Source: Arenimonas maotaiensis (GTDB lineage: Bacteria > Pseudomonadota > Gammaproteobacteria > Xanthomonadales > Xanthomonadaceae). From it: a DNA stretch of 64,000 bases. Within the stretch, counting starts at the first letter, position 1. Each line of letters starts with the position of its first letter. Location: assembly GCF_014638745.1 (NCBI RefSeq), contig NZ_BMFO01000001.1, positions 434,001-498,000 of the forward strand, in the 5' to 3' direction. The notes under the pieces are model-generated. The model was not told where the DNA came from and ran no database searches. It was given only the letters and a program-made list of their open reading frames with translations. The position numbers and the translations under genes were made by a program. This document shows positions 237 through 10,837 of the stretch, one piece after another.

Positions 237-2018
237 CTAGAGGCCTAGGCTTTCCGCCGTCAATGGCTGCAGACCGCCGGCGCCGGCTTTGCGCGGCACC
301 GGCGTAATCGTGCGGCTGTCCGGCAGCGGCTTGGACTCGGCGATCGCGGCCCAGACCGCATCCAGGCCGCGGTAGGCATAGGGCATCAACGGCACGTACT
401 GCGTGGCCAGCACCGGCTGCGCCAAGAAGGCGTCGAAATGCTGGGCGTGTTGTACCTGCCAATAGCGCACCGACGGCCGCGACTTGCCGGCCCAGGCGGC
501 ATACGCGCCGCCGCTGAAGGCTTCCGGCACCAGGCCGTCGTCCGCGCCGTGGATGACCAGCACCGGCAGGCCTTTGGCCGGTAGCTTGGCCTGGGTCGCG
601 GTAATCGATTGACGCAAAGCTTGGGCTTCAGCGTCATTGCCGGTCCACAGCGCGCGCAGGCATTTCAGTCCGGCGAACGCGGCATCGTTGCCGGTGGCTT
701 GGCCGTCGACGATGCCGACGCCGACCGAAGGCGGAATGCCGGTGCTGTCGCTCCACCACAGCGCGCGCTCGGCCTCTGCGGCCATGCGCGGTTTGCCGGC
801 GGCGTCCAGCGTGTCGAAACGGTAACCACAGGGCATGTCGTCCGGGCCGCTGCGCAGGTAGGCCGAGGCGTAGGTCACCGCCACCGCGCGCCAGAGATCG
901 AAGGCGGTGCTGACCGCACCGGCCGCCACAGCCTCACGCCGCCAACCGGCGGCGCGTAACATCGCCCAAGCCGCTTCGGCCTGCGCCTGCGGCGTGTCGG
1001 CGGCAAGCATGCCATCGGCTTTCAACGAGGCGCAGCGCAGGGTGCCGGCCGCGGACTTGACGCCGCCGGGCCGGGCATAGGCTACGGTATCGAAATCGGC
1101 CGCATTCAAGGCGCAAGGCATCAGCAACGCCGCTTCGGTGCTGTAGTCGTACAGCGGACGGCTGCCCGGCGCGTGGATGTTCGGCGACACCGCCACCACA
1201 CCGTCCAGCCAGTTGCCCGGCAATTCGGCCGCGCGCAGCACCGCGCCGGCGCCGTTGGACACGCCGACCGCCAGCGTGCGCGTGTTCTTGGTCGTGAACG
1301 GCGCCGCATGCGGGAAGCGGCTGTCGAGCGTGGCCAGCGCGTATTCGCTGGCCTGTTGCACATAGCGGCCCCAATCGGCCTCCGGGTTGTCGCCCGAGTG
1401 CGCGTGCTTGACCGCGATGCTCTTGGCGCCGGTGGGATATACAAATTCCTTCGGGGTGCCGTCGCGGCTCAGATGGCCGTCCACGGCGTAGCCTTCGCCC
1501 TCGGCGGCCAGAAATCCGGTGCCGGCGCCTTTGTCGGTATAGGCCACGGCGCAACCATGGTTCAGGCCCCAGGCGCCGGCCAACGCGATGGCGCCGTAGA
1601 TGCCGCGCGAGCCGCTGGACGCGGTGACCACCAGGCAGCGTTTGTCCAAGTCATAGTTGTCGGGAATCTGCACCATCACCCGGTGCGGTTGTGTGTTGCC
1701 TTTGAAACGCAGCAGCGCGCTGTATTCGCGGCCCGGCACCGGCGCGATGCGGCCGTACCAGTCGCCGTAGCCGCCGCCGGGAGCAAGATCGGCGATGCCG
1801 CGCCAATTGGCCCAGAGCGCACGCTGGCGCAGCAGCTCGGCGGAGGTCTCGCCGGCGGGTGCCGTCGGATTGCGCAGGCCGTCCAAACCAAGGCCGGCCG
1901 ACAGCAGATCGGCATGCGTGTGCAGGCTTTGGGCCAGCGGCACCGGACCGCGCGCAACGGCCAGTGACGCGGTGCCGGCAAGCAATATGCCGGCGATGAG
2001 GGTGTGCGTGTGACGCAT
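237..2018 (-). CDS. Secreted 3-hydroxybutyrate oligomer hydrolase
   Basis: A 593-residue protein of the D-(-)-3-hydroxybutyrate oligomer hydrolase family (3HBOH), which splits soluble oligomers of 3-hydroxybutyrate, the breakdown products of polyhydroxybutyrate, into monomers. Residues 1-22 form a signal peptide ending AVA-RG, so it acts in the periplasm or outside. The nucleophile is probably Ser254 in GVSNG, like the S-V-S-N-G box of the family; a C-terminal HGADDG segment fits an alpha/beta-hydrolase Asp loop. The start at 2018 has GGAGA seven bases upstream; a longer frame starting at 2189 would run through the promoter and palindrome and is rejected. It is divergent from 3-hydroxybutyrate dehydrogenase, the next catabolic step. 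Confidence 0.85.
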   Translation of the reverse strand: MRHTHTLIAGILLAGTASLAVARGPVPLAQSLHTHADLLSAGLGLDGLRNPTAPAGETSAELLRQRALWANWRGIADLAPGGGYGDWYGRIAPVPGREYSALLRFKGNTQPHRVMVQIPDNYDLDKRCLVVTASSGSRGIYGAIALAGAWGLNHGCAVAYTDKGAGTGFLAAEGEGYAVDGHLSRDGTPKEFVYPTGAKSIAVKHAHSGDNPEADWGRYVQQASEYALATLDSRFPHAAPFTTKNTRTLAVGVSNGAGAVLRAAELPGNWLDGVVAVSPNIHAPGSRPLYDYSTEAALLMPCALNAADFDTVAYARPGGVKSAAGTLRCASLKADGMLAADTPQAQAEAAWAMLRAAGWRREAVAAGAVSTAFDLWRAVAVTYASAYLRSGPDDMPCGYRFDTLDAAGKPRMAAEAERALWWSDSTGIPPSVGVGIVDGQATGNDAAFAGLKCLRALWTGNDAEAQALRQSITATQAKLPAKGLPVLVIHGADDGLVPEAFSGGAYAAWAGKSRPSVRYWQVQHAQHFDAFLAQPVLATQYVPLMPYAYRGLDAVWAAIAESKPLPDSRTITPVPRKAGAGGLQPLTAESLGL

Positions 2019-2081
2019 GGAAATCTCCGGGATCGGGAATGGGCTGAGCATACCGTAACAAAGCGCGCCAGGGCGGTCATG

Positions 2082-2093
2082 GTACCTTGGTAC
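2082..2093. promoter_or_regulatory. Palindromic operator, copy 1 (hydrolase/dehydrogenase)
   Basis: GTACCTTGGTAC, two GTACC arms around TT, lies between the divergent hydrolase and dehydrogenase genes. An identical site with the same AG after it occurs at 9361, between the receptor and permease genes. Candidate -10 boxes read by eye are TATGCT on the minus strand (2052-2047) and TATCGT on the plus strand (2119-2124). They place the centre of the palindrome at about -47 and -43, typical for an activator. TAC-type half-sites suit NarL/LuxR-type response regulators such as the CrbR-like protein encoded two genes away; that link is inference. Confidence 0.65.
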
Positions 2094-2155
2094 AGCTGAA
2101 TGCCGCAGGCATCCGGCGTATCGTAATCGGCAGACAATCACCGTATGGCGGCTCC

Positions 2156-2959
2156 ATGAACGACATTTTCCTCGCCGGACGCACGGCATTGGTCACCGGT
2201 GGCACTTCCGGCATCGGCTTGGCCATCGCCGAGGCCCTGGCCGCGGCCGGTTGCCGCGTCAGCATCAACGGTTTGGGCGACGCCGCCCAGATCGCCGCCG
2301 CGCTGTCGGGCATCGAAGCGCACGGCACGCAGCCGGCCCGCCATGATCCGGCCGACCTGCGCGATCCGGAAGCCATCGACGCGATGATGGCGCGCTGCGC
2401 CGCCGACGGCGGCATCGACATCCTGGTCAACTGCGCCGGCATGCAGATCGCCAAGCCGCTGGAAGCGCTGCCGGATGGCGCGTGGGAAGCGATCATCGCG
2501 GTCAACCTGAGCGCCGCATACCACAGCATGCGCCGCGCGCTGCCGGCGATGGCGGCCAAAGGCTTCGGCCGCGTGGTCAACATCGCCTCGGTGCACGGCC
2601 TGGTGGCCTCGGCCGGCAAAGCGCCGTATGTGGCCAGCAAATTCGGCCTGGTCGGCTTGAGCAAGGCCTTGGCGCTGGAATACGCCGCGGCCGGCTCGCG
2701 CGAAACCGGCGGCGTCACCGTCAACTGCATCTGCCCGGGCTGGGTGGAAACGCCGCTGATCGAGCCTCAGATCGAGGCGCGGATGAACGGCGGCAGCCGC
2801 GACGACGGCGTGCGCGCTCTGCTGCGCGAGAAGCAGCCGAGCCTGCGCATGTCCCGTCCGGAGGAAATCGCCGATTCCGTGCTCTGGCTGTGCCGGCGCG
2901 AGGCGCACAACATCACCGGCGCCACGATTGCCATCGACGGGGCGTGGACGGCACAATAA
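2156..2959 (+). CDS. bdhA: 3-hydroxybutyrate dehydrogenase (SDR family)
   Basis: A 267-residue short-chain dehydrogenase expected to oxidise (R)-3-hydroxybutyrate to acetoacetate with NAD+ in the cytoplasm. Visible motifs: nucleotide loop TGGTSGIG at residues 14-21, NCAG at 92-95, and catalytic Asn117, Ser145, Tyr158 and Lys162 (YVASK). The C-terminus NITGATIAIDGAWTAQ closely resembles the end of known 3-hydroxybutyrate dehydrogenases, which is why it is favoured over 3-oxoacyl reductases. A start at 2087 is possible in frame but would begin inside the palindrome, so 2156 is chosen. The response regulator gene follows after four bases, so the two are probably cotranscribed. Confidence 0.82.
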   Translation: MNDIFLAGRTALVTGGTSGIGLAIAEALAAAGCRVSINGLGDAAQIAAALSGIEAHGTQPARHDPADLRDPEAIDAMMARCAADGGIDILVNCAGMQIAKPLEALPDGAWEAIIAVNLSAAYHSMRRALPAMAAKGFGRVVNIASVHGLVASAGKAPYVASKFGLVGLSKALALEYAAAGSRETGGVTVNCICPGWVETPLIEPQIEARMNGGSRDDGVRALLREKQPSLRMSRPEEIADSVLWLCRREAHNITGATIAIDGAWTAQ

Positions 2960-2963
2960 GGCC

Positions 2964-3626
2964 ATGAACCATCTGCTGGTCGCCGACGACCATCCGCTGT
3001 ACCGCATGGCGCTGACCCAGGCGATTCGCGGCTTCATGCCCGACGCGCGCATCGGCGAAGCCGAGGATCACGACTCGGTGATGGCCTATCTGCAGGCCAA
3101 CCCCGATACCGACATCGTGCTGCTCGACTTGCACATGCCGGGCTGTCACGGACTGATGGGCCTGGCCTCGATCCGCGCCGAACATCCCGGCGTGGCGGTG
3201 ATCGTCATCTCCGCGCACGAAAACCCGGCCACCATCCGGCGCTCGCTGGATTACGGCGCGGTCGGTTACCTGACCAAACGCACCGGACTGGCCGACCTCA
3301 AGAACAGCCTGACCGCGGTGCTGTCCTGCCAGGAGTGGTTGCCGGCCTCGGTACGCAAGTCCGTGGCGCAGGCCGAACTCAGCGCCGACGACCACAGCCT
3401 CGACGAAAAACTGGCCTCGCTCAGTCCGCAACAGTTCAAGGTGCTGACCCGGGTCACCCGCGGCCTGCTGAACAAGCAGATCGCCGACGAGCTCGGCATC
3501 CAGGAACGCACGGTCAAGGCGCACATGAGCGCCATCTTCGAGAAGCTCGGCGTCAAGAACCGGACCCAGGCCGGCGTGCTGCTGCGCTCGCTGGAACTGG
3601 CCGACCCGAACAGCGCCCTGCCCTAG
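2964..3626 (+). CDS. crbR: CrbR/ErdR-type LuxR-family response regulator
   Basis: A 220-residue NarL/LuxR-type response regulator. The receiver domain covers residues 1-120, with acidic pocket Asp8-Asp9, phosphorylation site Asp55 in LLDLHMPG, and the conserved lysine in LTKRTG. The C-terminal LuxR helix-turn-helix (about 150-215) includes NKQIADELGIQERTVKAHMS. It is convergent with a transporter-like histidine kinase of the CrbS/MxtR type, the known partner of CrbR/ErdR. In Pseudomonas and Vibrio such pairs activate acetyl-CoA synthetase and control acetate use. Here crbR sits directly behind bdhA and probably shares its promoter, so it may respond to 3-hydroxybutyrate-derived acetyl units. 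The exact signal is not visible from sequence. Confidence 0.75.
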   Translation: MNHLLVADDHPLYRMALTQAIRGFMPDARIGEAEDHDSVMAYLQANPDTDIVLLDLHMPGCHGLMGLASIRAEHPGVAVIVISAHENPATIRRSLDYGAVGYLTKRTGLADLKNSLTAVLSCQEWLPASVRKSVAQAELSADDHSLDEKLASLSPQQFKVLTRVTRGLLNKQIADELGIQERTVKAHMSAIFEKLGVKNRTQAGVLLRSLELADPNSALP

Positions 3627-6600
3627 GCGCGGCGTTTCGGCAACAGCGCGGCCAACGCGGTCTTCAGCGCCAAGGGCTTGACCGGCTTGTGCAGGATCTG
3701 GCAACCGGCGTTGAGGATTTCGTTGCGCACCGCTTCGCTGCGGTCGGCGGTGACCACGATGCACGGCACCGGACCGATGAGCCGCTCGATGCGCGCGTGC
3801 AGGGCCACGCCGGTGGCGCCGGCATCGAGGTGGTAGTCGAGCACCAGCACGTCCGGACGCTGCGTCCGGGACAGCGCGACGGCCTGTTCGGGATCGGCCG
3901 CCGCCGTCACCTCGCAACCCCACTGGCCCAGCAGTTCCTGCATCGCGCGCAGCACGTCCGGATCGTTATCGACCGCCAACACGCACGCCGCCGGTGCCGG
4001 CACCGGTTGCGCCGCCGCCGGTTTGGGCGCTGACGGCGCCGCGTCCGCCAGCGGCACCGCCACCGCGAACATCGAACCCGCGCCGATGCGCGAATGCAGG
4101 CGGATCGGATGACCGAGCAGGCGCGCCATGCGGTCGGCGATGGCCAACCCCAGGCCCATGCCCTGCCCGGCGCGGTCGAGCCGGCGGAACTCCTCGAAGA
4201 TCATGCCGCGGTCGGCGTCGGCGATGCCCGGACCGGTGTCCCAGACCTGGATCCACAGGCGCCCGCCGGCGCGCCGGCAACCGAACAGGATGCGGCCCTG
4301 CGCGGTGTAGCGGATGGCGTTAGACAGGAAGTTCTGCAGGATGCGGCGCAGCAGCTGCGCGTCGCTCTCGACCCACAGCCGGCACGGCACCGCATGCAGC
4401 GCCAACCCCTTTTCGTGCGCCAACACCGAGAACTCGCTGGCCAGACCGGCCAGCAATTCATCGACCGGAAAGACGTTGACGTCCGGCTTCATGCCGCCGG
4501 CGTCCAGACGCGAGATGTCCAGCACGCTGGCCAGCAGGCTCTCGGCGGAATTCAGCGCGCCGTCGATGTTGGCCAGCGACGGCCGGTATTCGGCATGCTG
4601 CAGCTTCTGCTCCAGCGCGTGGCTGAACAGACGCGCGGCATGCAGGGGCTGGGCGAGGTCGTGGCTGACCGCGGCCAGGAAACGCGACTTGGCGCGGTTG
4701 GCGCGCTCGGCTTCGGCGCTGGCGGCCTGAAGCTGCGCGGTGCGTTCGGACACCCGCGCCTCCAGCGTCTCGGCGATCGATTTGAGCTTGCGTTCGCTCT
4801 CGCGGAATTCGGTGACGTCGGTGAAGGTGGCCACGAAGCCGCCGCCGGGCATCGGATTGCCCCGGATCTCGACGATGCTGTCACCGAAGCGGCGTTCGGT
4901 GATGTAGGCGGTGCCCGCTTTCATGTAGGCGATGCGCTTCTCGATGTCGGACGCACCGCGGCTGTCGCCGAGCAGGCCGCGTTCGACGTTGTAGGCGACC
5001 AGCCGCTCGACCGGCACGCCGACCTGCAGCAGGTTCTTCGGATACTGGAACAGCGACGCGTAACGCCGGTTCCAGGCCACCAGGCGCAGTTGCGCATCGA
5101 CCACGCTGATGCCCTGGCTCATGTTCTCCAGCGCCGCCTCCAGTACCTGCTGGTTGAAGCGCAACGCCTGCGAGGCCTCGCCGACGATGGCGGCGACGGT
5201 GTCCAGATCGGCGCCCTGTTCGCGGCGCGCGGCGTCGAACAGCAGACGCGCCGACGCCGCGCCCAACACCGACGACAGCTCGCGCTCGATGCGCTTCTGC
5301 AACGCCGGCAGCTGCTCGCCGTGTTCATCGAGCAGGCGCTGGACGCGCGCCGCCGGCAGGAAGCGGCCGGCGATGTTGAGCAGGCTGTCGCGGTTCAGGC
5401 CGGCGGCCGGATGGGCGGCTTGGCCCGGCTTGAAATACGCCGCGTGCAGATAGGGCAATACCGCGCCGGCCAGCAGGCTCAAGGTGACCGCGCGGCCGAG
5501 CCGGCTCCAGTCCTGCAGCCAGAACAACGAGTCCGGCGCCAGCCATTGCCAACCAAACGGCCCCTGAAGCAACCAGCCGGGATACCAGCCGAAGCCGTCG
5601 GCCAAGGCCGGCAGCAGCAGAATCCAGAGCCACAGCAGCACCGAGCCGGCCAAGCCGAACAGGACCGAGCGCGCCGGCATCTGCGGACGCCAGACCGCGA
5701 AGGCCAAGGCCGGCGCCAGGGTGCCGAGTGCGGAGAACGAGACCGCGCCGATGTCGGCCAAGGCGTCATTGTCGCCGCCGGCGCGGCTGTAGCCCCAGGC
5801 CAACAGCACCAGCACCAGGATGCCGGCGCGGCGCGCCCAGAGCAGCGGCCGGCTGAGGTCGCCGCCGGCACGCGTAGCCGCGTGCGACCAGGCGGTCTTG
5901 AGCCAGATCGGCGTCAACCAGTGGTTGGAGACCATCACCGACAGCGCCAAGGTGGCGAAGATGACCATGCCGGTGGCGGCGCTCAAGCCGCCGATGAAGG
6001 CCAGCAGGGCCATGCCGCCGTCGCCGCGCGACAGCGGCAAGGCCAGCACGAACAGGTCGGAGTCGATGCCGGCCGGCGCCAGCACCCGCTGCCCGGCCAG
6101 CGCGATCGGCAGGATCGGAATCGCGATCAGCAGCATGTACAGCGGAAACAGCCAACGCGCGGTCTGCGGGTCGCGGCCGTCGCGCAATTCGATGAAGCCG
6201 ACATGGAACTGGTGCGGCAAGGTGACCATGGCGAACACGCCGAGCAGGATCAGGGCCGGAAAGCCTTCGGCGCCGCCTTGGCGGATGGCGTCGGGCACCT
6301 CGACGGCGAGATCGAAGTTGAGCCAGACGTACAGGCCGAGCGCAAGCATGGCGCCGAGCTTCAACAGCGACTCCACCGCCATGGCCAGCACCAGCCCGCG
6401 GTTGCGTTCGCTGACCGACGCGCGCCGGGTGCCGAACAGCATGGCGAACGCCGCCATCACCAGCGCCACGTACAGCGCACTGTCCTTCCAGGCCTCGGTG
6501 GCCGGCTGGTAGGCGCCGCGCAGCATGCCGTAGCTCATGGTCACCGCCTTCAGCTGCAGCGCGATGTAAGGCACGATGCCGACCACCGCCACGGCGGTGA

Positions 6601-6952
6601 TGGCGGCGGCAAGCGTCGAATCGCGGCCGAGCCGGCTGGCGATCAGGTCGGCGATGGAGGTGGCGTTGTGCTCCTGCGCCAGCTGCTGCAGCTTGCGCAC
6701 GAAGCCGAACGCGAACAGGTAGAACAGCATGCTGCCGATGAAGGTCGGGGGAATCGGCCAACCCGAGCGCAAGGCCTGGGTCACTGTGCCGTAGAAGGTC
6801 CAGGACGTGCAGTACACCGCCAGCGACAGGCTGTAGACGTAGGGCCAATGCCGCGACAGCAGGCCCGGGCGGCGCTCGACCCACAGCGCGGTGCCGAACA
6901 GCAGGGCGATCCAGACCAGGGCGACGAGGATGAGTTGGAATTCGCTGAACAT
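3623..6952 (-). CDS. crbS: CrbS/MxtR-type hybrid sensor kinase fused to a solute symporter domain
   Basis: A 1109-residue membrane kinase. The first ~480 residues are a multi-spanning sodium:solute symporter (SLC5-like) domain; then come a linker, a PAS domain (about 590-710, with GISVVDAQLRLVAWNRRY), a coiled coil, HisKA with phospho-acceptor His764 in AVSHDLAQPLHAARLF, an HATPase domain (NFLSNAIRYT, DTGPGIADAD) and a C-terminal receiver with Asp1039 in VLDYHLDAG. This order is that of CrbS/MxtR and CbrA-like kinases. Its stop overlaps the end of crbR by four bases, tail to tail. A GTG start at 6979 would add nine residues; ATG at 6952 is preferred because the first membrane segment follows directly. 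Confidence 0.82.
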   Translation of the reverse strand: MFSEFQLILVALVWIALLFGTALWVERRPGLLSRHWPYVYSLSLAVYCTSWTFYGTVTQALRSGWPIPPTFIGSMLFYLFAFGFVRKLQQLAQEHNATSIADLIASRLGRDSTLAAAITAVAVVGIVPYIALQLKAVTMSYGMLRGAYQPATEAWKDSALYVALVMAAFAMLFGTRRASVSERNRGLVLAMAVESLLKLGAMLALGLYVWLNFDLAVEVPDAIRQGGAEGFPALILLGVFAMVTLPHQFHVGFIELRDGRDPQTARWLFPLYMLLIAIPILPIALAGQRVLAPAGIDSDLFVLALPLSRGDGGMALLAFIGGLSAATGMVIFATLALSVMVSNHWLTPIWLKTAWSHAATRAGGDLSRPLLWARRAGILVLVLLAWGYSRAGGDNDALADIGAVSFSALGTLAPALAFAVWRPQMPARSVLFGLAGSVLLWLWILLLPALADGFGWYPGWLLQGPFGWQWLAPDSLFWLQDWSRLGRAVTLSLLAGAVLPYLHAAYFKPGQAAHPAAGLNRDSLLNIAGRFLPAARVQRLLDEHGEQLPALQKRIERELSSVLGAASARLLFDAARREQGADLDTVAAIVGEASQALRFNQQVLEAALENMSQGISVVDAQLRLVAWNRRYASLFQYPKNLLQVGVPVERLVAYNVERGLLGDSRGASDIEKRIAYMKAGTAYITERRFGDSIVEIRGNPMPGGGFVATFTDVTEFRESERKLKSIAETLEARVSERTAQLQAASAEAERANRAKSRFLAAVSHDLAQPLHAARLFSHALEQKLQHAEYRPSLANIDGALNSAESLLASVLDISRLDAGGMKPDVNVFPVDELLAGLASEFSVLAHEKGLALHAVPCRLWVESDAQLLRRILQNFLSNAIRYTAQGRILFGCRRAGGRLWIQVWDTGPGIADADRGMIFEEFRRLDRAGQGMGLGLAIADRMARLLGHPIRLHSRIGAGSMFAVAVPLADAAPSAPKPAAAQPVPAPAACVLAVDNDPDVLRAMQELLGQWGCEVTAAADPEQAVALSRTQRPDVLVLDYHLDAGATGVALHARIERLIGPVPCIVVTADRSEAVRNEILNAGCQILHKPVKPLALKTALAALLPKRRA

Positions 6953-7004
6953 GGCCGGGACGCTGACGGTTCGCACCACTCTACCCGAAATGCGCAGGCC
7001 TTAC

Positions 7005-7038
7005 AAAAGGAAAGGCCGCAATCGCTTGCGGCCTTTCC
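7005..7038 (-). terminator. Strong terminator behind the TonB-dependent receptor
   Basis: A near-perfect 13-bp stem with arms GGAAAGGCCGCAA and TTGCGGCCTTTCC, followed on the minus strand by TTTT. It separates the receptor gene from crbS, which therefore needs its own promoter in 6953-7004 or depends on read-through. Confidence 0.8.
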
Positions 7039-7056
7039 GGTTCCGATCGGCGCGGA

Positions 7057-9273
7057 TCAGAAGTTGTAGCGGAGCGAGGCGTACCAGTTGCGCGGCATGC
7101 CGTAGTACGCGGTCTGGATGTTGCCGACCGAGGAAAACTCCTGGCCGTCGGTCTTGTAGACTTCGTCGGTCAGGTTGCGCACGCCGGCGCGGGCCTGCCA
7201 CTTGGCGTCGGCCGAATCCCAGACGCCGTACAGGCCGACCAGGGTGTAGGCGTCCTGCACCAGACCCGGACGGTTGTCGACCGACAGCCAGGTCTCGCTG
7301 CGGTAGGACGCGTCGGCGCCGACGCTGAAGGTGCTGCCGTTGGCCAGGCTGAAGCTGTGCTGCAGCGCGACGCGGGCGGTGAACTCCGGCGAGAACGGCA
7401 CATGGTCGTGCAGGTTGGCCAGCGCCGGGTTGAGGTCGACGCGCGGATCGACGAACTTGTCGTAGCGTGCGTCCATCCAACCCAGCTGGGTCGACAGGCG
7501 GGTGGCTTCGCCCAGCAGCGCGACGCCTTCGAACTCGATGCCGTCGATGGTCAGCTCGGCCGCGTTCAACACCGGGAAGCCGAAGCTCGGAACCGGCGCG
7601 CCCGGATTGGTGACTTCGGAGACGCGGGCCTGGAAGTCCTCGTAGCTGCTGTGGAAGGCCGCCAGACGGCCGCTCAGGCGCTTGTCGGCGGACTGCATCT
7701 TGACGCCCATTTCATAGGTCCAGACGAACTCCGGCGCGAACTCGGGGTTACTGGCCTCGAACGCCGAGTTGGCGCGGCCGTTGAAGCCGCCGGACTTGAA
7801 GCCGCGGTTGGCCGAGACGTAACCCATCACATTATCGCTGAACGCCTTCTGCAGGCTGGCGGACGGCGTGACCGCTGACCAGGATTTGTCGGTGTTGAGC
7901 GACACGGTTTCGTTCAGCACGCTGTAGAAACCGCCCCAGAAAGTGCTGGTGGTGCGGAAGTAATCCTTGTGGTCCTGGGTCCAGCGCACGCCGGCGGACA
8001 GGGTCCAGGTCGGCGCGAAATCCCAGCTGGCATGCGCGAAGGCGGCCTTGCTGTCGGTTTCCAGGTCGTCGCTGATGGTGCGCAGGAACGACACGCCGAA
8101 GAAATCATCGGCGTAGGCTTCCTGGTAGGACGGCACCTGCTCGTTCATGTAGTACAGGCCGAAGGTGGCCTTCAGGCCGGCGCCGCTGTCGTACTGCAGT
8201 TGCACTTCCTGGCTGCTCTGCTGCTGGTCGAGCGCCACCAGCACGTCGCCGAGCTCGCGCTCGGAGGCGTCGATGTCGATGAAGGACTCGGTCTGCAGCG
8301 TGCGGTGGGCGTTGATCGCCTTCAGCAGCCAGCGCTCGTTGATTTCCCAGTTGATGGCGGCGGTGACGCCCTTGTGGGTCATTTCCTGGCCTTGATCCGG
8401 CGAGAACGAGGTCCGGGTCTCGAAATCGTATTCGCCGGTCGGGGCGGCCAGCGGCGGTACGCTGGTGAGCGGCGCGGTCGGGCGGCCCAGGGTCAGGGCG
8501 TTGTCCTGGCGGGTGTAGTCGAAGGCCACGCTGATGTCGAGGCCGTCACGCGGACGCAGGGCCAGTTTGGCGCGGATGGCGCTGGTGTCCTCGTCGTTGT
8601 AATCCTGCTTGGTCACCGGATCGGTCACGTAGCCGTCGCGGGTGATCTTGGCGGCGGCCACGCTCATCGCCACCACATCGTTCAGCTTGCCGCTGGCGTA
8701 GAAGCGGCCTTCGGCGCGGCCGTAGTTGCCGGCGGTCAGCTCGACGGCGCCGCCCTCGTCATCGAACGGGTTCTTGGTGGTGATCTTGACCGCGCCGCCG
8801 GTGGAGTTCTTGCCGTACAGGGTGCCCTGCGGACCGCGCAGCACTTCCACCTGCTGCACGTCGAACAGCGAGAACAGCGCGCCGTTGATGCGCGAGTAGT
8901 ACACGTCGTCGACGTACATGCCGACGCCCGGGTCGAAGGTCTGCAACGCGTCCGGCTGGCCGATGCCGCGGATGAACACGTTGACGCTGTTCGAGGAGCC
9001 GCGGCCCTGCACGATGTTCATGTTCGGCACCGAACCCTGCAGGCCGTCGATGTTGGTCGCCTGCAGGTCCTTCATGTCGTCTTCGCTGAAGGCGCTGACC
9101 GCGACCGGCACGTCCTGGATGGACTCGGCGCGGCGGCGGGCGGTGACGGTGACGCTGTCCAGCGTCTTGGCCGCGGAGCCGTCGGCGGGCTTGGCGGTTT
9201 GGGCGTCCTGCGCCTGCGCCATGCCGGCGACGAGCGAAAGACCGATGGCCAGACTCAGATAATTCTTGTTCAT
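7057..9273 (-). CDS. TonB-dependent outer-membrane receptor, probably for 3-hydroxybutyrate oligomers
   Basis: A 738-residue receptor. Signal peptide residues 1-21 (ends AQA-QD); a TonB-box-like segment near LDSVTVTARRR; a plug domain with IRGIG, VLRGPQGTLYGKNSTGG and VKITTKNP; then a beta-barrel ending in the aromatic C-terminus ASLRYNF. It belongs to the broad iron-complex/oligosaccharide receptor group. The substrate is inferred from context: it is divergent from a GntP-type permease and shares an operator with the oligomer hydrolase and dehydrogenase genes. The start is supported by GGGAGAG just upstream. A candidate -10 (CATAGT, 9337-9332) puts the palindrome centre at about -41.5. Confidence 0.8.
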   Translation of the reverse strand: MNKNYLSLAIGLSLVAGMAQAQDAQTAKPADGSAAKTLDSVTVTARRRAESIQDVPVAVSAFSEDDMKDLQATNIDGLQGSVPNMNIVQGRGSSNSVNVFIRGIGQPDALQTFDPGVGMYVDDVYYSRINGALFSLFDVQQVEVLRGPQGTLYGKNSTGGAVKITTKNPFDDEGGAVELTAGNYGRAEGRFYASGKLNDVVAMSVAAAKITRDGYVTDPVTKQDYNDEDTSAIRAKLALRPRDGLDISVAFDYTRQDNALTLGRPTAPLTSVPPLAAPTGEYDFETRTSFSPDQGQEMTHKGVTAAINWEINERWLLKAINAHRTLQTESFIDIDASERELGDVLVALDQQQSSQEVQLQYDSGAGLKATFGLYYMNEQVPSYQEAYADDFFGVSFLRTISDDLETDSKAAFAHASWDFAPTWTLSAGVRWTQDHKDYFRTTSTFWGGFYSVLNETVSLNTDKSWSAVTPSASLQKAFSDNVMGYVSANRGFKSGGFNGRANSAFEASNPEFAPEFVWTYEMGVKMQSADKRLSGRLAAFHSSYEDFQARVSEVTNPGAPVPSFGFPVLNAAELTIDGIEFEGVALLGEATRLSTQLGWMDARYDKFVDPRVDLNPALANLHDHVPFSPEFTARVALQHSFSLANGSTFSVGADASYRSETWLSVDNRPGLVQDAYTLVGLYGVWDSADAKWQARAGVRNLTDEVYKTDGQEFSSVGNIQTAYYGMPRNWYASLRYNF

Positions 9274-9360
9274 AACTCTCCCTGGTGTTTGGGTGCTGTT
9301 GTCCGCGGCTGAAATACCGGTTGGGTAGCAGACTATGCCGTTTGCGGGGAGGCCGCAGTT

Positions 9361-9372
9361 GTACCTTGGTAC
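9361..9372. promoter_or_regulatory. Palindromic operator, copy 2 (receptor/permease)
   Basis: GTACCTTGGTAC, identical to the site at 2082 over the 12-bp core plus the following AG, between the divergent receptor and permease genes. The flanks otherwise differ, which argues for a conserved binding site rather than a duplicated region. It is centred near -41.5 for the receptor's candidate promoter. Confidence 0.65.
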
Positions 9373-9433
9373 AGTATGAGGGCGGGGGCGCTTTCACCGA
9401 CACTGCAGGCCGGTTTCCGCTTCGAGTCCCCGC

Positions 9434-10837
9434 ATGGATCTGTTGATCATCCTGGCCGCGCTGTTGTTCCTGATGTGGATCGCCTACCGCGGCCACAGCG
9501 TCATCCTGTTCGCGCCGGTGGCGGCGCTCGGCGCAGTGCTGGCCACCGACCCCTCGCTGGTGGCGCCGATGTTCACCGGTCTGTTCATGGACAAGATGGT
9601 CGGCTTCCTGAAGCTGTATTTCCCGGTATTCCTGCTCGGCGCCGTGTTCGGCAAGCTGATCGAGCTGTCGGGCTTCTCCAAATCCATCGTCGGCGCCGTG
9701 ATCCGCCTGTTCGGGCCGCAGCGCGCGATGCTGTCGATCGTGGCCGTGTGCGCCCTGCTGACCTACGGCGGCGTATCGCTGTTCGTGGTGGTGTTCGCGG
9801 TCTATCCGTTCGCGGCCGAACTGTTCCGGCAGGCCGACATCCCGAAGCGGCTGATTCCCGGCACCATCGCGCTCGGCGCGTTCACCTTCACCATGGACGC
9901 CCTGCCCGGCAGCCCGCAGATCCAGAACATCATCCCGACCTCGTTCTTCGGCACCGACACCTGGGCCTCGCCTTGGCTCGGCACCTTGGGCGGCGTGTTC
10001 ATCCTCGCCGTCGGCCTGGTGTATCTGGAATGGCGCCGACGCGCCGCCTTGGGCAAAGGCGAAGGCTACGGCGATCCGGACAGCCTGCACAACGAGCCGG
10101 CCGCGTTCGGCGGCGACCGTCTGGCGCATCCGCTGGTCGCGCTGCTGCCGCTGCTGCTGGTCGGTGTCGGCAACAAGCTGCTGAGCGGTTGGATTCCGCT
10201 CTGGTACGGCGACAGCCACAGCTTCGATCCGGCGGTGATCGGCAGCGCCGCGCCGGTGGTGCAGGAAATCCCGAAGGTAGCGGCCATCTGGTCGGTGCAG
10301 GGCGCGCTGCTGGTCGGCATCCTGAGCGTGCTGGCGCTGGCCTGGAAGCCGGTGATCGGCCGCTTCAGCGAAGGCGCGCGCGCCGCCGTCGGCGGCGCCA
10401 TGCTGGCGGCGATGAACACCGCCTCGGAATACGGTTTCGGCGCGGTGATCGCCGCCCTGCCCGGTTTCCTGCTGGTCGCCAACGCCTTGGGGGCCATCCC
10501 CAACCCGCTGATCAACGAAGCGATCACCGTCACCGCGCTGGCCGGCATCACCGGCTCGGCCTCCGGCGGCATGAGCATCGCCTTGGCCGCGATGTCGGAA
10601 ACCTTCATCGCCAACGCCAACGCGGCCGGCATCCCGATGGAGGTGCTGCACCGGGTGGCGGCGATGGCCTCCGGCGGCATGGACACCCTGCCGCACAACG
10701 GCGCGGTGATCACCCTGTTGGCGGTCACCGGCCTGACCCACCGGCAGGCCTATAAGGACATCTTCGCCATCACCCTGATCAAGACCTCGGCGGTGTTCGT
10801 CATCATCGGCCTGTATTACGCCTTCGGGCTGGTCTGA
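9434..10837 (+). CDS. GntP-family permease, probable 3-hydroxybutyrate uptake
   Basis: A 467-residue inner-membrane protein with about twelve hydrophobic segments, of the gluconate permease (GntP) superfamily, whose members carry small hydroxy acids in symport with protons. Motifs typical of the branch annotated as D-beta-hydroxybutyrate permeases are seen: TMDALPGSPQIQN near residue 155 and a glycine/serine-rich ASGGMSIALAAMSE in the second half. With the nearby oligomer hydrolase and dehydrogenase, the substrate is most likely 3-hydroxybutyrate; gluconate is less likely because no gluconate kinase lies nearby. The 3' end overlaps the convergent S41 protease gene by 22 bases. Confidence 0.75.
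   Translation: MDLLIILAALLFLMWIAYRGHSVILFAPVAALGAVLATDPSLVAPMFTGLFMDKMVGFLKLYFPVFLLGAVFGKLIELSGFSKSIVGAVIRLFGPQRAMLSIVAVCALLTYGGVSLFVVVFAVYPFAAELFRQADIPKRLIPGTIALGAFTFTMDALPGSPQIQNIIPTSFFGTDTWASPWLGTLGGVFILAVGLVYLEWRRRAALGKGEGYGDPDSLHNEPAAFGGDRLAHPLVALLPLLLVGVGNKLLSGWIPLWYGDSHSFDPAVIGSAAPVVQEIPKVAAIWSVQGALLVGILSVLALAWKPVIGRFSEGARAAVGGAMLAAMNTASEYGFGAVIAALPGFLLVANALGAIPNPLINEAITVTALAGITGSASGGMSIALAAMSETFIANANAAGIPMEVLHRVAAMASGGMDTLPHNGAVITLLAVTGLTHRQAYKDIFAITLIKTSAVFVIIGLYYAFGLV

Follow-up and report, generated by a model that had tools for sequence, protein, structure and literature searches.

Two identical palindromes are predicted operators of a CrbS/R-type system for 3-hydroxybutyrate scavenging in Arenimonas maotaiensis

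The closest described relative of the system considered here is CrbS/R (MxtR/ErdR) of Pseudomonas, an acetate system with an SLC5-type hybrid kinase and a LuxR-type regulator (PMC5715377, cited here for part of its text). In Pseudomonas fluorescens the ACTU motif is required for CrbR-dependent activation; it is an imperfect inverted repeat with the core ACYNNNGT, centred near -44 upstream of an RpoD promoter, and at acs it extends from -52 to -36, with the start mapped by 5′ rapid amplification of cDNA ends (PMC5715377, in part). We have analyzed a 64,000-nucleotide stretch of the Arenimonas maotaiensis genome (the window; contig NZ_BMFO01000001.1, positions 434,001 to 498,000 of the forward strand) in which two identical palindromes, designated S1 and S2, lie between divergent genes of a locus for the use of 3-hydroxybutyrate (3HB) and oligomers of polyhydroxybutyrate (PHB). 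The locus encodes its own SLC5-type hybrid kinase and LuxR-type regulator, and the palindromes share the repeat structure, core, centre and promoter arrangement of the ACTU motif, with the difference that the transcription starts are here predicted. It departs from the acetate system in its targets, which in the window are 3HB and PHB-oligomer genes, acs not being a target in this genome; in its half-sites, both GTACC here versus AGACC-like sequences in six acs loci of relatives; and in its regulator, which belongs to a clade of its own and scores under the ErdR cut-off. Judging from the sequence, S1 and S2 are very probably operators of the locus-encoded CrbR, in a CrbS/R-type system for scavenging 3HB and PHB oligomers that would comprise four co-activated promoters and feedback on crbR.

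Other described systems are alike in some parts only. CbrA/B of Pseudomonas has a regulator, CbrB, that is not of the LuxR type. Its sensor is alike in the SLC5-type part: residues 2-458 of the window's CrbS align with PDB 10ED, the SLC5-STAC structure of CbrA (preprint PMC13022988, in part), with an E value of 5.7e-49, and the alignment stops at residue 458; no Pfam SSF match is found in CrbS, even at E 5. CbrA/B serves histidine use, and the same source describes RpuS/R of Sinorhizobium fredii, which resembles the system here in its SLC5/STAC kinase, its LuxR-type regulator and its role in uptake of a small organic acid, but differs in substrate (pyruvate) and lineage (PMC9100948, in part). 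The words 'inverted repeat' do not occur in the text of that paper.

The two operators are as follows.

2082..2093, + strand: operator S1, GTACCTTGGTAC, common to the divergent promoters of the hydrolase gene and of bdhA-crbR
9361..9372, + strand: operator S2, GTACCTTGGTAC, common to the divergent promoters of the TonB receptor gene and of the GntP-type permease gene

An earlier note on this DNA had counted exactly two copies of GTACCTTGGTAC by eye, and this holds both for the window and for the whole genome (2,160,901 bases in 16 contigs), where the control pattern, read backwards, has none. The sequence is an inverted repeat, GTACC-TT-GGTAC, with 5-bp half-sites and 2 bp between them, and the looser GTACNTTNGTMC also matches the genome only at S1 and S2, its control matching twice. 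A first-order Markov estimate derived from the composition of the window (66% GC) predicts 0.018 copies of GTACCTTGGTAC per genome and about 2e-6 within the two intergenic regions. S1 and S2 have a stretch of 14 nt in common (GTACCTTGGTACAG); because the flanks outside it differ, a recent duplication is unlikely, as the earlier note had also held. A general TACCNNGGTA regulon is unsupported, with 8 places in the genome versus 10 for the control. Besides S1 and S2 there are six such palindromes, five in long open frames and one in a stretch that we take to be 16S rRNA-like; location in a long open frame is weak evidence, since S1 and S2 too lie within mechanically called open frames.

The earlier note had also likened the element to NarL-type operators. 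NarL half-sites contain TAC and are arranged as heptamers in a 7-2-7 layout, which is longer than the 12-bp element of S1 and S2. The likeness therefore holds loosely for the TAC and for the regulator family, CrbR belonging with NarL/NarP (PDB 1a04, E 9.6e-24), but not for the heptamer layout.

Both sites are conserved in place. A protein scan with CrbR gave 80 loci, of which 57 (L003-L059, including Arenimonas, Rehaibacterium, Silanimonas, Luteimonas, Wenzhouxiangella, Alkalisalibacterium and Dokdonella) were considered for S1, and from 45 of these a divergent region between the hydrolase gene and bdhA or crbR could be excised. The loose site [GT][GT]ACNT[TA]NGT[AC]C, on either strand, is present in 42 of the 45 regions, against a mean of 0.055 and a maximum of 1 for resampled regions. 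This pattern was broadened after viewing the same regions; the count for the strict form GTACYTTGGTAC, 21 of 45, is more independent. At the S1 position Silanimonas has CATCGTACTTTCGTCCA or CATCGTACGTTCGTCCA, and Wenzhouxiangella has GGACTTTGGTACAG. We note that the intergenic region of the Wenzhouxiangella-type loci L038, L040, L047 and L048 holds a further motif resembling a copy of the site, which in some of them is on the opposite strand, and that L010, on a contig labelled as a Rhizobium metagenome-assembled genome, holds an Arenimonas-like locus, probably through mis-binning.

We also scanned 61 genomes (27 of the same genus, the window's own included, and 34 others) with the reversed pattern as control. 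The same-genus genomes contain 32 matches to GTACYTTGGTAC versus 2 for the control, and all 32 are at S1 or S2, so the conservation on which the earlier note had staked its reading is found. Each of the 19 same-genus genomes with a close CrbR has one or two exact GTACYTTGGTAC sites; the other eight, in which no CrbR match was found at E 1e-35, have none. Seven further matches outside the genus are at S1 or S2 (two in G030, and one each in G031, G036, G044, G049 and G058). In four genomes of other genera (G030, G044, G049 and G058) S2 and crbR are on separate contigs, and in G049 the distance between them, judged from the contig ends, is at least 171 kb; in the other three the contigs are too short to give a distance.

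The position of the sites relative to the predicted promoters is constrained as well. We tallied TANNNT hexamers at each distance of 5-59 bp from the 12-mer in 52 distinct S1 and 30 distinct S2 sequences; these are distinct by their flanks, were found through the loose pattern given above and are related by descent, their source genomes may overlap, and the set still includes L038, a copy in tandem, L186, in which the site is reversed, and L163, where it adjoins a different receptor gene. A hexamer lies 24-26 bp away in 40 of 52 sites on the bdhA side (47 occurrences over all distances) and in 41 of 52 on the hydrolase side (48 over all distances), and 25-26 bp away in 28 of 29 on the receptor side (28 over all distances). 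TANNNT is seen just once among the 30 permease-side sequences; hexamers of the form G/T-ANNNT, a class picked post hoc after inspection, are found at 25-26 bp in 22 of 30 (39 over all distances), and 17 of the 22 are GACACT. The corresponding elements in the window are these.

2119..2124, + strand: predicted -10 element TATCGT of bdhA-crbR, 25 bp from S1
2052..2057, - strand: predicted -10 element TACGGT of the hydrolase gene, 24 bp from S1
9330..9335, - strand: predicted -10 element TAGTCT of the TonB receptor gene, 25 bp from S2
9399..9404, + strand: predicted atypical -10 element GACACT of the permease gene, 26 bp from S2

If these hexamers occupy -12 to -7, the operators are centred at -42.5 to -44.5 relative to the predicted starts. 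The earlier note had placed the centre at about -41.5 for the receptor and near -43 to -47 for the others; the receptor value is nearer -43.5 and the other three about -42.5 to -44.5, and the activator arrangement that it proposed stands. Given these predicted promoters, the placement of S1 and S2 is that of activator sites beside the -35 element, because all four flanks of the two sites keep the 24-26 bp spacing and neither site overlaps the predicted -10 elements. It agrees with the position of the ACTU motif at P. fluorescens acs. In an alignment of the distinct sites the well conserved columns are the 12-mer plus a few flanking bases.

In-place conservation, the fixed distance to the -10 elements and the separation of S2 from the crbR contig in four genomes together support the suggestion of the earlier note that one regulator controls uptake, cleavage and oxidation genes. 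An autoregulatory loop, also raised there, is plausible, crbR starting 4 bp past the end of bdhA and thus behind S1. In the system that we propose, the SLC5-type kinase CrbS would sense 3HB or a related signal and phosphorylate CrbR, which would bind GTACC-TT-GGTAC just upstream of the -35 element and activate in both directions. The four promoters (those of the oligomer hydrolase, bdhA-crbR, the TonB receptor and the GntP-type permease) would then rise together, and CrbR, being within its own regulon, would lift its own level. Within the CrbS/R family the system would form a branch akin to the acs-linked one, with its own operator and rededicated to foreign PHB oligomers. The architecture is well supported and CrbR is likely to be the binder, whereas gene content permits only a guess at the signal. 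CrbR is favoured as the binder because of the likeness to ACTU and because 3HB loci and the paralogue-linked acs genes have different operators.

The regulators of the two kinds of locus are themselves distinct. A tree of 77 regulator sequences (3 of 80 rows were excluded, two for being incomplete and one for duplicating the window protein, and Pseudomonas CrbR is not included) places 61 sequences of the 3HB-locus type on one side of a branch with support of 98/99, with 10 acs-linked sequences and 6 others outside; the unity of the 10 acs-linked sequences is weakly supported (37/67), and the tree carries a long-branch warning. All 10 have an acs match adjacent, which in L176 is just the C-terminal end. 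In Dokdonella L025 and L043 the regulator belongs to the 3HB clade and a hydrolase was not seen in the locus. The recognition helix starts with QER in 59 of the 61 3HB-clade sequences (TER in L022, GER in L051) and with SEA in all 10 acs-linked ones. The sites upstream of acs in relatives are TAGACCAATGTCTAAT (L173, L177), AAGACCATGGTCTAAG (L175) and CGACCAAGGTCTAAG (L178), together with two that the pattern missed and that were read by eye, AGACGATGGTCTAA (L172) and AGACGAAGGTCTAA (L174), so that GTACC at 3HB loci stands against AGACC, AGACG or CGACC at acs of six relatives. The two branches thus appear, on these sampled sites, to use related but different half-sites.

Of the 26 other same-genus genomes, 11 encode a second CrbR (42-47% identity), which is linked to acs wherever the locus was inspected. 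The window genome, which is smaller, has the 3HB copy only and no second, acs-linked CrbR. The earlier note had named acs among the genes that might carry the site; in this genome that candidate is rejected, the acs gene having neither a third exact copy of the palindrome nor, by two patterns, an ACTU-like site upstream. An acs-type operator regulon is also unsupported here, AGACCNNNGTCT giving 8 matches versus 20 for the control.

These observations allow a bolder reading, on which we find ourselves evenly divided: that a separate CrbS/R branch has been rededicated from acetate to foreign PHB, that its kinase senses 3HB or its oligomers, that differences in operator (AGACC versus GTACC) and helix (SEA versus QER) insulate it from its acs-linked relative, and that receptors, and in some lineages depolymerases, have been exchanged under the kept operator. 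For the helix and operator differences we infer a causal tie. The prediction is of a compact regulon for a common natural polyester, spanning several families, whose regulator, operator and promoter geometry are directly testable, and of a natural case in which two related signalling systems, often in one genome, use different DNA sites, which bears on the question of how paralogous two-component systems are insulated. Among the paper titles found on ErdR/hydroxybutyrate, 3HB dehydrogenase/TonB/two-component, GntP, SLC5 or Arenimonas/polyhydroxybutyrate, none has this regulon as its subject, subscription literature being mostly outside that scope, and the string 'hydroxybut' is absent from the texts of PMC8402216, PMC5436829 and PMC9100948.

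A number of observations weigh against the proposal that S1 and S2 are CrbR operators of a 3HB system. Matches with up to three mismatches number 14 in the window versus a shuffle mean of 19, and since there is no excess, the meaning of the sequence is confined to its near-exact form. There is none either for GTACYTTGGTAC in the 34 other genomes, with 18 matches versus 17 for the control; beyond the seven at S1 or S2 noted above, two of these are at PhaZ7-like genes (G047, G049), one is in a mercury-resistance-like locus (G044) and eight are at unrelated genes (G030, G038, two in G039, G042, G045, G050, G051); seven of the eight lie inside mechanically called open frames, itself weak evidence, and one (L159, G039) is between frames. 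The earlier note had counted frequent occurrence in unrelated intergenic regions as damaging: within the genus no match stands away from S1 and S2, and outside it 8 of 18 are at unrelated genes. Numerical enrichment is limited to the genus, and beyond the genus position is the telling feature. The co-occurrence of CrbR and site is partly trivial, because the sites sit within the crbR locus. No loose site is found in three of the 45 S1 regions (L020, L022 and L051; in L022 the opposite strand carries a copy with one mismatch), and of six additional S1 regions three contain the site (L180, L185, L186) and three do not (L184, L187, L188). The permease-side -10 element is atypical. The window CrbR scores 203 bits with the ErdR model NF041830, below its cut-off of 390; the acs-linked proteins of G036, G084 and G097 are likewise under it at 248-252 bits, and a class-wide search of 114 genomes yielded no ErdR above it. 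The acs operator was sampled in just six loci, two of them by eye, and in one published acs site of P. fluorescens one of the halves reads TACC (PMC5715377, in part), which leaves the two operator types incompletely separated. The signal is assigned from gene content, and binding and expression are predictions. Both the proposal and the insulation reading are tempered accordingly by the out-of-genus control count, the look-alike in the mercury locus and the TACC half of the acs site.

Chance recurrence of a short palindrome might be invoked from the absence of excess over shuffles and over the out-of-genus control, but with 0.018 copies expected per genome and the site kept in register across many genera it is vanishingly unlikely, and we reject it on the genome-wide count and the conservation in place. 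A more substantial alternative is that a different regulator, encoded elsewhere and for example of the MerR kind, uses the palindrome as its operator, with crbR merely one of the targets. We infer binding by CrbR from an operator that is not identical to ACTU and for a protein below the ErdR cut-off, and an exact GTACCTTGGTAC is present in G044 (L161, at about 4015; G044:C10) between genes recognized by eye as merR and as mercury transport and reductase genes, indicating that MerR-type operators can contain the same 12-mer. However, MerR-type sites are located between -35 and -10, unlike S1 and S2, which lie upstream of -35; the core and position of S1 and S2 match the CrbR-dependent ACTU motif, and the paralogous branch has a related yet different operator at acs. 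We consider another regulator improbable.

Similarly small is the likelihood that CrbR does bind S1 and S2 and chiefly represses, or serves only one side of each divergent pair. The sites are polar, their central dinucleotide reading TT along the strand of bdhA in 50 of 52 S1 sequences and along that of the permease gene in 30 of 30 S2 sequences, in a search whose pattern admitted only TT or TA at the centre, and the atypical permease-side -10 would also fit one-sided action; against this the sites overlap none of the predicted -10 elements, and the 24-26 bp spacing is kept on all sides. The alternative to which we give the most room, although we still think it doubtful, retains the 3HB targets and has the kinase sense acetate or another downstream product. 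Kinase and regulator are indeed kin of acs-linked CrbS/R, but in the window genome acs is without a site and no other exact copy exists, and in 11 of the 26 other same-genus genomes the second CrbR provides a regulator that, where opened, is the one linked to acs. The preferred reading remains activation by CrbR of four 3HB-related promoters.

The genes of the locus are given below.

237..2018, - strand: 3-hydroxybutyrate-oligomer hydrolase (PF10605, E 2.1e-117)
2156..2959, + strand: 3-hydroxybutyrate dehydrogenase, bdhA (NF009093, 258.6 bits, cut-off 258)
2964..3626, + strand: CrbR-like LuxR-type response regulator (Response_reg and GerE), the proposed binder of S1 and S2
3623..6952, - strand: CrbS-like hybrid histidine kinase with an SLC5-type N-terminal part (PAS, HisKA, HATPase, REC)
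7057..9273, - strand: TonB-dependent receptor (plug and beta-barrel domains)
9434..10837, + strand: GntP-type permease, likely for 3-hydroxybutyrate from the names of homologues and a 3HB dehydrogenase gene near them

The N terminus of the hydrolase, starting MRHTHTLIAGILLAGTASLAVARG, is signal-peptide-like by eye. The dehydrogenase is below the cut-off of TIGR01963 (267.3 versus 307.05 bits). The genes crbR and crbS are convergent neighbours, which puts the SLC5-type hybrid kinase gene directly beside that of the regulator. No Pfam or NCBIfam model matches the permease at E 0.001, and at E 5 there is a single meaningless Pfam match; the structure prediction for the protein, from 16 sequences, has a mean predicted local distance difference test score of 72. 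Plasmid-borne homologues with 71-73% identity are called GntP family permease wherever they are named (6 of 12 among the matches listed, of 104), and in the two regions opened a 3HB dehydrogenase gene adjoins the homologue (Klebsiella) or is two genes off (Azospirillum).

The source of the polymer can be addressed from synthase content. PhaC_N, searched at E 1e-10, is found neither in the window genome nor in the 26 other same-genus genomes, and in only 2 of the 61 genomes overall; class III synthases might escape this model. Given this absence, foreign PHB is the most likely substrate of the locus. A secreted lipase-like gene, with a product of PF01674 in both cases, follows the operator in G047 and G049, and the G047 product matches the PHB depolymerase PhaZ7 (4bym, E 2.5e-12). 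The earlier note had looked to phaZ genes of relatives for further sites, and this is borne out at these two genes and not at the other close homologues: the exact site is at 2 of 7 in the 61 genomes, and an eighth, weak match (G031) is without it, so that PhaZ7-like genes as a general target are unsupported. Across the operator from the PhaZ7-like gene of G049 (L164, 3738-6427) are genes that resemble 5-oxoprolinase subunits by eye.

Two further observations concern the S2 side of the locus. The crbS gene follows the receptor gene in the same orientation, and between them, at 7005-7038, is a terminator-like hairpin with a T run (by eye), on account of which crbS is perhaps not transcribed from S2; a separate crbS promoter may lie past the hairpin. 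Finally, the receptor under a kept S2 is about 63-71% identical to that of the window in some loci and just about 31-39% identical in others, even within the genus (L147-L153, L183), which suggests exchange of the receptor beneath a conserved S2 promoter.

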